Below are positions 1,364-6,870 of a DNA stretch of 57,307 bases, one piece after another. The DNA lies in IMG/VR virus record IMGVR_UViG_3300007510_000008, positions 1 to 57,307 of that record, one strand, 5' to 3'. The notes under the pieces are model-generated. The model made no database searches. It was not told the origin of the DNA and saw only the letters and a list, made by a program, of their open reading frames with translations. The position numbers and the translations under genes are program-made. Within the stretch, counting starts at the first letter, position 1. Each line of letters starts with the position of its first letter. Source of the DNA: a virus.

Positions 1364-2695
1364 ATGGCAAAGACAAATGTAAAGAGAAACACAAAGACAT
1401 TTACTCATGGGGGCGGGGCTGGAAGAAAGTTCCGTTCTGATATTGAGCTTAAGAGAACTGTAGCATCTTGCTTGCTTTTCGAGAACACTTTCTATGAAAG
1501 AGGATCGGACATTGCGGATCGTTTGCAGACTCTTGCAGACAAGGTAACATTCAATGATCTTGCTAAGACAGCATTGTGGGCAAGAAGTGACTTGAATCTT
1601 CGTCACGTATCATTGTATCTTGCTATGCTTTCCTTGAAGAAGGAAGGTAACAAGAGAGCCTTGGTAAACAACGTAATCCAGAGAGCCGATGAGATGGCAG
1701 AGTCTATCGCTCTTTATTGGAAGTTGAATGGCGAAGGTGCGCCTCTTGCTGGTGCGTTGAAGAAGGGTATCGCAGATGCCTTTGGTAAGTTCGATGAGTA
1801 TCAGCTTGGGAAGTATGACAGCCGTAACGCTGGCGTAAAGCTTCGTGACGTTATGTTCCTTACGCACCCTAAGCCACTTGCAGGACGTAAGCGTTTGTAT
1901 AAGAAAATTGCCGATGGCAAGACTCTTGTAGCAGACACTTGGGAAACTCGTCTTTCAAGTGGGCAGGATAAGAAGGTAGCTTTCTCAACTCTGCTTGCAG
2001 AGAATAAGCTTGGTGCTATGGCGTTGCTACGTAATCTAAGAAACATGCGTGATAGCAACGTGGATAGAACTCTTATCCTTAACGCTCTTAAGACAGCGAA
2101 GTGGGATCGTGTGCTTCCTTACAGATTCGCTACTGCTGCTAAGTATGCGCCTGAGTATGGTGACGCACTCGACAAGGCATTCAGAGTTTCAGCTAAGGCT
2201 GCAAAGTCTCCAAGCGGAACTGGTTTGATTCTTGTTGACGTAAGCGGATCGATGGATTGGGCAATGTCTGGAAACAGCGAAACAAGCAGAGTTGCTTCGG
2301 CAGCTACGCTTGCAGCAATCGCTAAGGAAAGCATGGACGATGCTATCGTTTACACTTTCGAGTCAAACCTTCACGGTCCTTACCTTGGAAGTGGTTTGAA
2401 GCTTGTCAAGGATATCGATGACACTCCTAGGGGTAGAACGTATCTTGGTGGAGCTTTGAAGGAACTTGCAAGTAAGTACCGTGGACAGAAGTTCGATTAC
2501 CTTATCGTGATTACTGATGAGCAAGCTCATGACAGAATCACAAGCACACCTGACGCTGGTACTAAGGTAATGGTGAATGTGGCTCCATACGAGAACGGTA
2601 TTTCAATCAGCAATGATTGGGTACGTGTGAATGGATGGAGCGAGAAGATTCTTGACTTCCTCAAGGTTGATGAGGATCTTCGAAATGAGATCTGA
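1364..2695 (+). CDS. rsr: Ro60/Rsr-like TROVE-vWA RNA-binding protein
   Basis: A 443-residue protein with the two-domain layout of Ro60. A helical TROVE domain occupies about residues 15-280, including the family-typical stretch DVMFLTHPKPLAGRKRLYK, and a von Willebrand A domain follows from about 286 with an intact metal-binding MIDAS motif D292-V-S294-G-S296. Known Ro60 proteins are rings that bind misfolded RNAs and Y RNAs; bacterial Rsr works with exoribonucleases in rRNA maturation and stress RNA turnover. At 443 aa this one is shorter than typical family members (about 530 aa). The start follows GGAGG at good spacing. It sits inside the tRNA island next to a strongly structured spacer, so a role in tRNA or ncRNA quality control is an inference. 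Confidence 0.88.
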   Translation: MAKTNVKRNTKTFTHGGGAGRKFRSDIELKRTVASCLLFENTFYERGSDIADRLQTLADKVTFNDLAKTALWARSDLNLRHVSLYLAMLSLKKEGNKRALVNNVIQRADEMAESIALYWKLNGEGAPLAGALKKGIADAFGKFDEYQLGKYDSRNAGVKLRDVMFLTHPKPLAGRKRLYKKIADGKTLVADTWETRLSSGQDKKVAFSTLLAENKLGAMALLRNLRNMRDSNVDRTLILNALKTAKWDRVLPYRFATAAKYAPEYGDALDKAFRVSAKAAKSPSGTGLILVDVSGSMDWAMSGNSETSRVASAATLAAIAKESMDDAIVYTFESNLHGPYLGSGLKLVKDIDDTPRGRTYLGGALKELASKYRGQKFDYLIVITDEQAHDRITSTPDAGTKVMVNVAPYENGISISNDWVRVNGWSEKILDFLKVDEDLRNEI

Positions 2696-2710
2696 TCAGG
2701 TCTAAGGAGT

Positions 2711-2809
2711 TTGCCAGTTCTCCGATGCACACAAGAACAAAACTGGCATTTATGCGGCACTAAGCGGCATTGTGGTACTGCCACATACTGCCACATAAAT
2801 GCCGCATTA
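2711..2809 (+). ncRNA. Structured RNA candidate next to the Ro60 gene
   Basis: This spacer between the Ro60 homologue and tRNA-Pro is full of inverted repeats. TGCCAGTT (2712-2719) pairs with AACTGGCA (2741-2748). GGCATTTATG (2745-2754) pairs perfectly with CATAAATGCC (2794-2803). Inside that rod TGTGG pairs with CCACA. The 10-mer TACTGCCACA is repeated exactly in tandem at 2776-2795. The first two stems share GGCA (2745-2748), so they cannot both form completely. There is no T-run, so it is not an intrinsic terminator. It could be a Y-RNA-like ligand for the adjacent Ro60 protein, or a processing hairpin for the tRNAs. Confidence 0.5.
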
Positions 2810-3763: not shown

Positions 3764-4249
3764 ATGAAAATGTTCACAGGTGGAAACGGATTCAAGTATG
3801 ACTTCGATGAAGTGATGGAAAGCATTGCTACCGAAGCTCACATGAATGACGTTGCGATCATGGTAGGAACGGATAGCCAGAACCACAAGGATCACACTAC
3901 ATTCGTTACGGCTGTCGTGTGCCACAAGCTTGGTAAGGGTGCTAGACTTTTCTACGTGCGCGACAAGGTTCGTAGAATCAATAGTGTTCGTGAAAGAATG
4001 CTACGAGAAGCAGAGTTGAGCATCCAAGTTGCTCTTGAGTATCAGGATCGTGTAGACCGCGAGTACCCTGAGTTGAACGATTGCATCTTCGAAGTACACG
4101 CTGACGTTAATGCTTATCCAGAGCATGAGTCAAACAGAGCGTTGAAGGAAATCGTTGGCTGGATCACAGGTTGCGGATTCACATGCAGAATCAAACCTGA
4201 TGCTGTAATTGCTTCAACGGTTGCTGACAAGTACGCTATTCAGCATTAA
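3764..4249 (+). CDS. YkuK/DUF458-family RNase H-like protein
   Basis: A 161-residue protein matching the family of Bacillus YkuK (DUF458), which has a ribonuclease H-like fold. Visible signatures are VGTDSQ near residue 34, a central helix with RERMLREAELS, HADVNAYPEHESN around residue 124, and a C-terminal PDAVIASTVAD. The conserved Asp residues in the first, second and last motifs resemble an RNase H-type metal site. The biochemical role of the family is unproven. GAGAGG precedes the start. It is flanked by tRNA genes and lies near the Ro60 homologue, so an RNA-linked role is possible. Confidence 0.75.
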   Translation: MKMFTGGNGFKYDFDEVMESIATEAHMNDVAIMVGTDSQNHKDHTTFVTAVVCHKLGKGARLFYVRDKVRRINSVRERMLREAELSIQVALEYQDRVDREYPELNDCIFEVHADVNAYPEHESNRALKEIVGWITGCGFTCRIKPDAVIASTVADKYAIQH

Positions 4250-4802: not shown

Positions 4803-5867
4803 ATGAATATTGGTCTTGTGGATGCAGATTACTTAACCCGAAAAAAGCACCGATTTCCTAATCTAGCCTTAATGAAATTATCTGGACATTTTAAGAGGCT
4901 AGGACATTCTGTTGAACTTGTATTAAATACGAATTTATTATCTGGCTCTTTTTATGATAAAATTTTTGTCAGTCAAGTATTTACCGACACGGATTTCCAG
5001 ATTCCTGAAGGTATAGATTTTGAAAAAGGAGGGACGGGTTTTTCGCTGCAAAATAGTCTTTCATTACCCCCCATGATTGAGCATCATTATCCAGACTATG
5101 AGCTATATTCCAAGGCTTCAATTTCAGGAGAAATGTATGATAACTATAGTATAGGTTTTACTACTAGAGGTTGCATAAGAGGGTGTGATTTTTGCGTAAA
5201 TAAGAATTCCAAAAGAGCAGTTTTACATTCTCCTGTAAGCGAATTTTTAGATAAAAACCGAAAATATATTTGTTTGCTGGACGATAACATTCTTGCCTGT
5301 AAGGATTGGGAACAAGTAATTAATTCCCTAAGAGATACGGGAAAACCTTTTCAATTTAAGCAGGGTTTAGATATAAGATTAATGACTCCAAGAAAGTCGA
5401 AACTTTTTTCCGAATCTAAATTGAGAAGCTATCCCTATTTTGCTTTTGACCTGATGAAAGAAAGAAATTCTGTCGAGAGAGGTCTATCGAAGTGGCGCGA
5501 ATACAACCAGAAAAAATGTAAAGCCTACTTGCTTTGCGCTTTTGAATCTTTAGACGATGATGATATTGAAAACATTTTTGTTCGGGTTGAAATACTAGCC
5601 TCTTATAAAGTTCTCCCCTATTTAATGAGGTTCGAAGATTATAAGAAAAGTGAGAACTATGGTATGTATGTAAATCTTGCAGCTTATCTCAATCAAGCTT
5701 CTCTTTTTGAAAAAATGTCTTTTAGAGAGTTTTGTGAAAAAGATAATGCAAGAAAAGGGGGCAACTCAGCAACAATGAGATACTTGAACGACTTTGAGTG
5801 TAGAAATCCCCACATAGCTAAAAAATTTTTTGATCGTTGTATCTGGAAAGAGCAAAATAGTAGTTGA
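4803..5867 (+). CDS. Radical SAM enzyme with N-terminal Rossmann/B12-like domain
   Basis: The 354-residue protein has the radical SAM cluster motif C124-x3-C128-x2-C131 (GFTTRGCIRGCDFC) after an N-terminal domain beginning NIGLVDADYL and PNLALMKLSGHFKRLGHSVE. That opening resembles the cobalamin-binding-like domain of a known bacterial radical SAM family. It would bind a [4Fe-4S] cluster and cleave S-adenosylmethionine to start radical chemistry; the substrate cannot be told. Its codon use is clearly more AT-rich (TTA, ATA, AAA, TTT) than its neighbours, suggesting recent acquisition. It is inserted between tRNA-Cys and a promoter that leads to tRNA-Ala. A role in tRNA modification is only a guess from location. 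Confidence 0.82.
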   Translation: MNIGLVDADYLTRKKHRFPNLALMKLSGHFKRLGHSVELVLNTNLLSGSFYDKIFVSQVFTDTDFQIPEGIDFEKGGTGFSLQNSLSLPPMIEHHYPDYELYSKASISGEMYDNYSIGFTTRGCIRGCDFCVNKNSKRAVLHSPVSEFLDKNRKYICLLDDNILACKDWEQVINSLRDTGKPFQFKQGLDIRLMTPRKSKLFSESKLRSYPYFAFDLMKERNSVERGLSKWREYNQKKCKAYLLCAFESLDDDDIENIFVRVEILASYKVLPYLMRFEDYKKSENYGMYVNLAAYLNQASLFEKMSFREFCEKDNARKGGNSATMRYLNDFECRNPHIAKKFFDRCIWKEQNSS

Positions 5868-5892
5868 CAAACTACTTAAGATAGTGTATTAT
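5864..5892 (+). promoter_or_regulatory. Consensus sigma-70 promoter upstream of tRNA-Ala
   Basis: The -35 is a perfect TTGACA (5864-5869), followed by a 17-bp spacer and TATTAT (5887-5892). The -35 overlaps the stop codon of the radical SAM gene. The expected start near 5899 would transcribe a structured leader of about 110 nt and then tRNA-Ala, the CAT tRNAs and tRNA-Ser, to the terminator at 6832. Confidence 0.85.
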
Positions 5893-5894
5893 GA

Positions 5895-6007
5895 ATTTCG
5901 TAATTGGGAAGCAACTATGAGCTTTCTTATCAATTGATAAAGGCTACAGGGGAAACTAACTTCTCCGATTACGAAATGCCGCAGTATTAGAATAAAAAGT
6001 TTCCCCT
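5895..6007 (+). ncRNA. Structured leader RNA with potential pseudoknot
   Basis: Two perfect long-range pairings interleave. ATTTCGTAAT (5895-5904) pairs with ATTACGAAAT (5968-5977), and AGGGGAAAC (5948-5956) pairs with GTTTCCCCT (5999-6007). Because the second 5' half lies inside the first pair, the two stems together make an H-type pseudoknot. Between them TTATC-AATT-GATAA forms a third hairpin. A start near 5899 would trim a few bases of the first stem. The only open frame is a 6-codon one (ATG at about 5917). It may be a processed small RNA or a tRNA-operon leader with a regulatory fold. Confidence 0.5.
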
Positions 6008-6013
6008 ATATTC

Positions 6014-6089
6014 GGGGCATGGGTCTGCTTGGAGTGGACACTTCTTTTGCAAGGAAGATATCAGTTGGGTTCGAATCCCAAATGCTCCA
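6014..6089 (+). tRNA. tRNA-Ala (TGC)
   Basis: The acceptor GGGGCAT pairs with ATGCTCC and includes the G3-U70 wobble that defines alanine tRNAs. The anticodon arm CTTCT-TTTGCAA-GGAAG reads TGC. The T loop is TTCGAAT and the discriminator is A followed by CC. It is the first tRNA of the promoter-driven second half of the island. Confidence 0.92.
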
Positions 6090-6098
6090 CCGAATGCT

Positions 6099-6160
6099 AG
6101 TAGTGAAGTGGTGAGTTACTTCGAAACTATTAATTTCGCCTCAATACTCCCGCGATTGTC
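6099..6160 (+). repeat. tRNA-spacer repeat, copy R1
   Basis: Begins AGTAGTGAAGTGGTGAG, then TTACTTCG, and after a 20-nt spacer ACTCCCGCGATTGTCC. GAAGT can pair with ACTTC to form a small hairpin, and GG(T)GAGT can pair with ACTCCC (6146-6151). The same blocks recur at 6532-6587 and partly at 6180 and 423. Confidence 0.5.
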
Positions 6161-6179
6161 CTCTAGCGTTTTCTTTTCG

Positions 6180-6204
6180 GTAGTGTAGTGAGAGTTACTT
6201 CGAC
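6180..6204 (+). repeat. tRNA-spacer repeat, copy R2 (partial)
   Basis: GGTAGTGTAGTGAGAGTTACTTCGA, allowing small gaps, matches the 5' half of copies R1 and R3 (GTAGTG, then GAG-TTACTTCG). The downstream ACTCC-GCG-TTG block is absent; instead a GTGGGCAATGCCCCAC hairpin-like sequence follows at about 6223-6238. Confidence 0.45.
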
Positions 6205-6276
6205 TTCAATCATGTCGGTACTGTGGGCAATGCCCCACGTAACCATTTCTCTTGCGTTTGTTCTCCGAAATTTTAT

Positions 6277-6351
6277 TGCGCGGCAAGTGCTGGCATCTTC
6301 GGCTAGTCTCATAAGCTACGCCTCTCGTCGGTTCGATTCCGACCCGCGCCT
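6277..6351 (+). tRNA. tRNA-like gene with CAT anticodon (degenerate)
   Basis: Positions fit canonical numbering with CAT exactly at 34-36 (loop CTCATAA) and a perfect T arm GTCGG-TTCGATT-CCGAC. Elsewhere it is poor. Acceptor bases 1 and 72 are T and C (mismatch) with six GC pairs following, base 8 is C rather than T, the D stem pairs badly, and bases 27 and 43 mismatch (C-C). A mismatched 1-72 pair is a feature of bacterial initiator tRNA, but the anticodon stem lacks the three G-C pairs of an initiator. It could be a degenerate or recruited tRNA-Met or tRNA-Ile2, or a tRNA mimic. Confidence 0.5.
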
Positions 6352-6356
6352 CCTTC

Positions 6357-6430
6357 GGCTATGTAGCTTATATGGTAAAAGCGCATGTTTCATAAGCATG
6401 AGATTGTTGGATCGTTACCAACCGTAGCCA
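6357..6430 (+). tRNA. tRNA-Met (CAT)
   Basis: The acceptor GGCTATG pairs with CGTAGCC (one wobble). The D stem is GCTT/AAGC, the anticodon arm CATGT-TTCATAA-GCATG reads CAT, the T stem is GTTGG/CCAAC, and the discriminator is A followed by CC. The T loop ATCGTTA departs from the TTCRANY consensus, like that of tRNA-Asp here. Whether it decodes Met or, after lysidine modification, the Ile codon ATA cannot be settled by eye. Confidence 0.85.
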
Positions 6431-6466
6431 CCGCGCAGCACATAACCACAACCGAAAGGACTCGAT

Positions 6467-6514
6467 ATGTGGAGATTCTTGTTTGTTGATATCTTCTGGT
6501 GGTTGCGAGACTGA
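6467..6514 (+). CDS. Possible 15-residue peptide
   Basis: AAAGGA lies 6 bases before an ATG that opens a 15-codon frame, MWRFLFVDIFWWLRD, ending TGA 6512-6514. It is strongly hydrophobic and aromatic. Spacing and ribosome-binding site are good, but such a short frame can arise by chance. Confidence 0.25.
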   Translation: MWRFLFVDIFWWLRD

Positions 6515-6530
6515 TAGAAGATGCTATTAT
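6503..6530 (+). promoter_or_regulatory. Possible weak promoter before tRNA-Ser
   Basis: TTGCGA (6503-6508), a 16-bp spacer and TATTAT (6525-6530) make a moderate sigma-70 match, directly followed by repeat copy R3. It may add transcription to tRNA-Ser and the structured RNA downstream. Confidence 0.35.
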
Positions 6531-6531
6531 G

Positions 6532-6588
6532 AGTAGTGGTGAAGTGGGAGATACTTCGTTGAATAGAAAAACTCCTGCGCTTGTTCCC
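6532..6588 (+). repeat. tRNA-spacer repeat, copy R3
   Basis: AGTAGTGGTGAAGTGGGAG is followed by ATACTTCG and then AACTCCTGCGCTTGTTCCC. GAAGT pairs with ACTTC, and GGGAG (6546-6550) pairs perfectly with CTCC of ACTCC (6571-6575). It is the best-paired copy of the four. Confidence 0.5.
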
Positions 6589-6598
6589 TACATATATT

Positions 6599-6683
6599 GG
6601 CAGATTACTCAAGTGGTAAAGAGGATTGTTTGCTAAACAATTAGGTCAGAAATGGCGCATAGGTTCGAATCCTATATCTGCCG
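6599..6683 (+). tRNA. tRNA-Ser (GCT)
   Basis: The acceptor GGCAGAT pairs with ATCTGCC. The anticodon arm ATTGT-TTGCTAA-ACAAT reads GCT. The long variable arm makes it class II, as required for serine. The T arm is ATAGG-TTCGAAT-CCTAT and the discriminator G is the serine identity base. Confidence 0.95.
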
Positions 6684-6690
6684 CCTAACA

Positions 6691-6823
6691 TTTTATGGGG
6701 AGTTGATAGAGCGCATTCAATAGATTAACGTTTCTAGTCATGAGAGGTTTCGTTAGGTTGTTGAAAAAGCGGTTAAAATGGGGATCGATTGACGCTATCT
6801 AAAGCCCTCTCCCCGCCATAAAA
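6691..6823 (+). ncRNA. Rod-like structured RNA candidate (Y-RNA-like ends)
   Basis: The two ends of this 133-nt stretch pair over a long interrupted stem. TTTTATGG (6691-6698) pairs with CCATAAAA (6816-6823), GGAG with CTCC inside it, and GATAG-(A)-GCG (6705-6713) with CGCTATC (6793-6799). Inside, TTCAA/TTGAA encloses TTAACG/CGTTAG and then TTTCT-AGTCATG-AGAGG, a 5-bp stem with a 7-nt loop. No long open frame is present. It lies between tRNA-Ser and an intrinsic terminator, so it would be the last element of the tRNA transcript. A long stem joining the 5' and 3' ends is the hallmark of Ro60-binding Y RNAs; identity is inferred. Confidence 0.5.
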
Positions 6824-6831
6824 AATAGATG

Positions 6832-6860
6832 AAAGGGAGAGTTGACTTGCTCTCCCTTTT
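6832..6860 (+). terminator. Intrinsic terminator ending the tRNA island
   Basis: AAAGGGAGAG (6832-6841) and CTCTCCCTTT (6850-6859) form a perfect 10-bp stem with an 8-nt loop, TTGACTTG, followed by T. The loop itself contains the -35 box of the next promoter. Confidence 0.9.
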
Positions 6861-6870
6861 GTGTTATACT
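6842..6870 (+). promoter_or_regulatory. Sigma-70 promoter nested in the terminator
   Basis: TTGACT (6842-6847) sits in the terminator loop, followed by a 17-bp spacer and TATACT (6865-6870). It would start transcription near 6877, 23 bases before the next gene, and probably drives the replication operon. Confidence 0.82.

Follow-up and report, generated by a model that had tools for sequence, protein, structure and literature searches.

The window analysed here is the whole 57,307-nt stretch of IMG/VR record IMGVR_UViG_3300007510_000008 (57.3 kb). It derives from a contractile-tailed phage, as judged from PHROG matches that recognise terminase, portal, tail sheath and tape measure. The left 7 kb of the window form a tRNA island with 11 tRNA genes called by ARAGORN, and one additional tRNA gene was read by eye from the sequence at 6279-6351. 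Inside this island lies a plus-strand open reading frame (1364-2695; 443 amino acids), followed by a structured spacer (2696-2810), tRNA-Pro (2811-2885; ARAGORN) and, further downstream, a run of tRNA genes among which we found three predicted Y RNAs. A region with a T-arm-like hairpin (355-490) was rejected as a candidate: its Rfam matches were the flanking tRNAs only.

By Pfam, PHROG and predicted fold, the open reading frame encodes a genuine Ro60/Rsr homologue, a ring-shaped TROVE domain of HEAT repeats joined to a vWA domain with a MIDAS. It matched Pfam TROVE (PF05731) with E=5.9e-14 and 52.5 bits (cut-off 23), and PHROG 850 ('RNA-binding protein') with E=3.2e-38; the Pfam vWA_Ro60 score was under its cut-off (22.2 vs 27.7). 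The MIDAS residues (DxSxS ... D) D292, S294, S296 and D385 are present and are invariant across an alignment of 40 phage TROVE proteins, as are K150 and H168. By motif (KY...LTHPKP), we aligned the latter two with K170 and H187 of Ro60, which we take to be RNA-binding residues. Relatives of the protein occur in ~90 phage records, each less than 60% identical to it. An AlphaFold model based on the alignment of 40 phage sequences had a pLDDT of 89, and Foldseek matched the predicted structure to Ro60 of Thermus phage phiLo (9l5y), Xenopus and human Ro60, and D. radiodurans Rsr (9kop, 9l5y, 1yvp, 2nvo and 9nen; TM 0.56-0.73). The phiLo protein, itself a phage TROVE-vWA protein (PDB 9l5y; 9kop), was the best match both by sequence (E 4e-24) and by fold (Foldseek 7e-16 to 9e-18). 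The first-pass annotation, which had read the frame as a TROVE-vWA protein with an intact MIDAS, is correct.

The same annotation had pointed to inverted repeats and a tandem pair in the spacer and to a tRNA-Pro downstream of it, and all of these are present. The repeat TGCCAGTT (2712-2719) pairs with AACTGGCA (2741-2748) to give a first stem (2712-2748). A second, the hairpin 2745-2803, has 25-nt arms (2745-2769 and 2779-2803; 84% match) that contain GGCATTTATG/CATAAATGCC, and the tandem TACTGCCACA lies at 2776 and 2786. Folding of the plus strand was better than that of shuffled sequences (z=-2.35, with 4 of 200 shuffles equally good; z=-2.68, p=0.006 in a second shuffle set), and the hairpin by itself reached z=-4.1. 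Note that the minus strand is more strongly folded than the plus strand (z=-4.2). The two main stems do share GGCA (2745-2748), as had been observed when a switch between folds was proposed; however, the fold ensemble is lopsided, with a probability of 0.96 for stem 1 and 0.03 for stem 2, which lends the switch little support. The hairpin has no T-run and is thus not a plain terminator; our guess is that, placed between the TROVE mRNA and tRNA-Pro, it might serve processing or stabilisation. Searching IMG/VR with the pattern GGCATTTATG...CATAAATGCC returned two hairpins, both rejected as unrelated. A 14-nt near-repeat is shared by the spacer end and a site further downstream (AAATGCCGCATTAT, 2797-2810; AAATGCCGCAGTAT, 5974-5987), with a tRNA gene shortly 3' of both copies.

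Ro60 and Y RNAs form an ancient RNA quality-control pair. In bacteria, Ro60 binds the stem of the Y RNA and PNPase is bound by its tRNA-like module (PMC8394870). The vertebrate Ro60 ring binds the Y RNA stem on its outer surface (PMC4726728). Y RNAs of other phages were located by searching whole records with the YrlA model. Matches clustered at TROVE genes: Xanthomonas phage Olaya, CcrColossus, Gurke and Rhizobium phages had several in the non-coding stretch that precedes TROVE, and Quantum and a number of IMG/VR contigs had a single one each. These RNAs have a common end stem. Its 5' side consists of helix 1, the loop UGGYGWAG, helix 2 and UUACUUC, and its 3' side of helix 2', CGYUUGUUCC and helix 1'. 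Between the two sides lies either a YrlA-like T-arm/D-arm tRNA-like module or just a short loop, and it is this end stem that encloses the YrlA-like tRNA-mimic modules of Olaya, which has four RNAs of this type, and others.

To model the end stem, we aligned six short-form RNAs by sequence only, all from other phages and none from the window, and built a covariance model (R1) from them. An alignment with long-loop members misplaced the second helix and was not used. Both helices of the end stem covary strongly. In the R1 alignment, 93.9% of the cells were paired and the covariation score was 1.00, compared to 0.29 in shuffles. An alignment of 20 sequences, which includes Y RNA 3 of the window and its copy in a sibling phage, likewise had 93.9% of cells paired, with 77 cells changed on both sides (25.8 in shuffles); sliding the partner strand reduced pairing to 33.9-48.1%.

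R1 was specific for TROVE loci. At E<=0.05, it gave 206 matches in 91 phage TROVE loci, all of them on the TROVE strand. At least one match was present in 84 of the 91 loci, and two of the remaining seven are cut off upstream of TROVE. The best 150 of the 206 matches divided into 136 upstream of TROVE (median distance 188 nt), 10 downstream and 4 overlapping the assigned start. As at the phage loci, the R1-type RNAs of bacterial TROVE loci (168 matches; n=80) were all on the TROVE strand. Across 16 phage records, all 44 matches, including three in the window, fell beside TROVE (within about 5 kb), as did all 8 matches in six whole bacterial genomes, for which the best 150 candidates per genome were scored. 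On long forms, R1 and YrlA matches coincide (e.g. L010:3551-3685 and 3800-3936).

In the window, searched as a whole with filters off, the top three R1 matches are the predicted Y RNAs; the fourth scored 12.2 bits (E=0.27). Y RNA 3 (6529-6592), the shortest form, scored 48.3 bits (E=3.6e-12), Y RNA 2 (6173-6269) 33.7 bits (E=9e-8) and Y RNA 1 (6093-6167), the weakest, 22.6 bits (E=1.9e-4). A motif score independent of R1 and trained on other phages ranked the same three first (Y RNA 2, 53.9; Y RNA 3, 52.8; Y RNA 1, 41.4), the best score over 20 shuffled windows being 37.1. Both ends of each RNA are predicted to pair around the conserved internal loop, with the helices intact in all three, and the upper part of Y RNA 2 is predicted to form two small hairpins without T or D arms. 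All three lie between tRNA genes, near the Ro60 gene and on its strand, 3.4-3.9 kb downstream. They do not belong to the YrlA family (RF02553), since they have no T or D arm and do not reach its threshold of 69 bits. Within the window, YrlA matched true tRNA genes only (21.2 bits at 6304-6409 and 9.5 bits at 1283-1299). The first of these matches joins the T arm of the tRNA-Met-like gene to the D arm of the tRNA that follows, in the order found in YrlA; we treated it as an artefact because the same search gives matches in 13 of 14 control genomes. Since the record is incomplete, a tRNA-like Y RNA may be encoded elsewhere in the phage genome.

The three RNAs are part of an ordered plus-strand unit: promoter-like site, leader, tRNA-Ala, Y RNA 1, Y RNA 2, tRNA-Met-like gene, tRNA-Met, Y RNA 3, tRNA-Ser and terminator-like hairpin. 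The unit is headed by a predicted sigma70-like promoter (5864-5892; TTGACA, 17 nt, TATTAT; 11 of 12 consensus matches) and closed by a terminator-like hairpin (6829-6862), with the reservation that both are consensus matches, of a kind no more frequent in the window than in shuffles. Between the promoter and tRNA-Ala lies a structured leader RNA (5899-5978; z=-4.3) of no assigned type, which had no Rfam match. It is 73% conserved in a sibling contig (L115:1661-1767), with paired changes from TCGTAAT/ATTACGA to TCGTAGT/ACTACGA. A leader pseudoknot between AGGGGAAACT (5952-5961) and AGTTTCCCCT (5999-6008) is possible. tRNA-Ala(TGC) (6014-6091; ARAGORN) directly precedes Y RNA 1, which starts 1 nt after it. 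Y RNA 2 ends 9 nt before the tRNA-Met-like gene (6279-6351; CAT anticodon), which ARAGORN missed and which is 83.5% conserved in L115:1985-2068. tRNA-Met(CAT) (6357-6432) and tRNA-Ser(GCT) (6599-6685) were both found by ARAGORN and Rfam, with a gap of 6 nt between Y RNA 3 and the latter. In other phages, 12 further cases of a Y RNA followed by a tRNA at a spacing of 3-33 nt were found; in Arthrobacter phage Atuin the distance is 5 nt, twice. Such spacing would fit release of the Y RNA by tRNA maturation. At the end of the unit (6829-6870), the loop of the terminator-like stem contains the -35 box of a following promoter-like site (6842-6870; TTGACT ... TATACT), and the same compact overlap, with TTGACA ... 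TATAAT, is seen in sibling contig L114 (~355-400).

L114 also carries a copy of Y RNA 3 (173-236; R1 49.4 bits) in DNA that is ~80% identical, with a G-U to A-U change that preserves pairing. L115, a fragment covering the same island, had no significant R1 match (best E=0.08).

The first-pass annotation had put the Y RNA in the spacer, which adjoins TROVE on the same strand and whose folding beats shuffles. The tests made speak against this placement. The spacer matched no Rfam family, YrlA included, gave no R1 match at E<=5 even with filters off, and contains none of the conserved end-stem elements of phage Y RNAs, so that the Ro60-binding end stem was not found in it. No relatives of the spacer were detected by blastn in phage records or by the IMG/VR pattern scan, noting that the sibling contigs L113-L116 are fragments ending short of TROVE and spacer. 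Three clear candidates also lie at other positions of the window. It is extremely improbable that the spacer hairpin is the Y RNA of this phage, even a divergent one. A second stretch flagged at the outset (6685-6830) folded no better than shuffles (z=-0.69); the Y RNAs end just before it. The earlier proposal of a phage Ro ribonucleoprotein within a tRNA island is nevertheless well supported, with its RNA moved from the spacer to 6093-6592.

The R1 elements might instead be cis-acting leader structures by which Ro60 autoregulates its own mRNA, rather than free RNAs. Their usual position just upstream of TROVE and on its strand (median 188 nt among the best 150 of 206 matches) would be expected in this case. 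However, those of the window lie far downstream amid tRNA genes, downstream elements exist in other loci too, there are several per locus, and many include a tRNA mimic of the YrlA type, as is known from free Y RNAs of bacteria (PMC8394870). We therefore consider autoregulation very improbable. It is very improbable, too, that the Y RNAs are functionless, decaying copies left from a Ro60 locus that the phage acquired. The weakness of Y RNA 1, the missing tRNA-like module and the lack of significant matches at the same place in L115 would be consistent with such remnants, but the helices are intact in all three RNAs, Y RNA 3 is kept in the sibling of 80% identity, where its change maintains pairing, and the TROVE reading frame and its MIDAS are intact.

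We thus regard it as highly likely that the phage encodes a complete Ro ribonucleoprotein (RNP), made of one Ro60 and three short predicted Y RNAs that would be transcribed with a tRNA unit. The family and fold of the protein, the end stem with its covariation and its association with TROVE, and the order of the genes, all read from the DNA, argue for this assignment. Against it stand the distance of 3.4-3.9 kb from TROVE, compared to the usual upstream median of 188 nt, the weak Y RNA 1 (22.6 bits) and the lack of a significant R1 match in L115.

Transcription, processing, binding and function of the RNP are inferred. Most likely, the Y RNAs would be co-transcribed with tRNA-Ala, the two tRNA-Met and tRNA-Ser from the predicted promoter at 5864-5892. 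Maturation of the flanking tRNAs would cut them free, for example through RNase P cleavage at the 5' ends of the tRNAs that follow Y RNAs 2 and 3. The two-helix end stem of each Y RNA, with its conserved internal loop, would then be available to the outer face of the Ro60 ring, and binding would stabilise both protein and RNA. The bound Y RNA would gate access of other RNAs, such as damaged or unprocessed tRNA or rRNA, to the ring. Because Y RNAs 1-3 have no tRNA-like module, they are more likely to be gates or stabilisers than PNPase tethers. Stabilising Ro60 and gating the ring are the most likely roles of such stem-only Y RNAs, and the likely outcome would be a quality control that acts on tRNA or rRNA of both phage and host. 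The TROVE gene of crAss001 is transcribed early in infection (PMC10136315), which would fit a role in host takeover or RNA maintenance. More tentatively, phages may build stem-only Y RNAs, without the PNPase-recruiting tRNA mimic, into tRNA units such that tRNA maturation makes them as well. If so, the supply of the Ro RNP would be coupled to that of phage tRNAs, and the RNP would work without PNPase. Short forms are frequent, suggesting that the Y RNAs used by phages often do without a tRNA mimic, and the detachment of the Y RNAs from ro60 in this phage offers a natural case arguing for action in trans.

Phage Ro60 proteins (PHROG 850; PDB 9l5y) and predicted phage Y RNAs are already known; the arrangement read here, with stem-only Y RNAs uncoupled from ro60 and interleaved with tRNAs, is a variant of this known kind. 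Chen et al. 2014 (RNA 20:1715; cited in PMC12282133) reportedly predicted Y RNAs adjacent to Ro60 genes of bacteria and phages. As in those cases, the Y RNAs of the window are phage-encoded near a Ro60 gene with several per locus; unlike them, they lie 3.4-3.9 kb from ro60 among tRNA genes. Phage phiLo has an R1 match 11 nt past its TROVE gene (E=0.003). The window protein is 26% identical to phiLo Ro60 and shorter, and its Y RNAs are located in a tRNA island. D. radiodurans Rsr (2nvo) shares its fold with the predicted model, and in the bacterial Rsr systems (Deinococcus radiodurans, Salmonella RYPER) an RNA with paired ends binds the ring. In YrlA and DrY, a tRNA-like module recruits PNPase (PMC8394870); this module is absent from Y RNAs 1-3. 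Again unlike bacterial Ro60 systems, the window has no RNA-repair gene of the RtcB/RtcA type among the ORFs scanned, nor were RNA ligase or PNK genes found among them. For jumbo phages, a role of TROVE genes as platforms of RNA repair has been discussed (PMC7824862). Listeria phage CKA15 resembles the window in having an Rsr homologue; its gene lies within 2 kb of highly expressed non-coding transcripts, which the authors suggest as possible Y RNAs and which were proposed without a sequence motif (PMC12282133). Like the window, crAss001 encodes its TROVE protein in a tRNA-bearing region; in contrast to the window, it has no R1 match at E<=0.05, only a weaker regular-expression match downstream.

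With R1 as a simple and specific stem model, phage TROVE genes at many loci become testable RNPs. Most bacterial Ro60 loci (L119-L198), notably of Acidobacteria and Hyphomonadaceae, have R1-type Y RNAs arrayed upstream of the ro60 gene, and 46 of 69 bacterial loci contain at least one R1-type RNA with a T arm. Several tRNAs annotated or called beside phage TROVE genes overlap YrlA or R1 matches (tRNA-Ser in Gurke, tRNA-Asn in Olaya, tRNA-Gln in CcrColossus and tRNA-His in L031); these genes, in L009, L010, L011 and L031, probably represent the tRNA-like part of Y RNAs. In another phage contig, ARAGORN placed a permuted tmRNA gene ~1.2 kb upstream of TROVE (L032:4374-4785).
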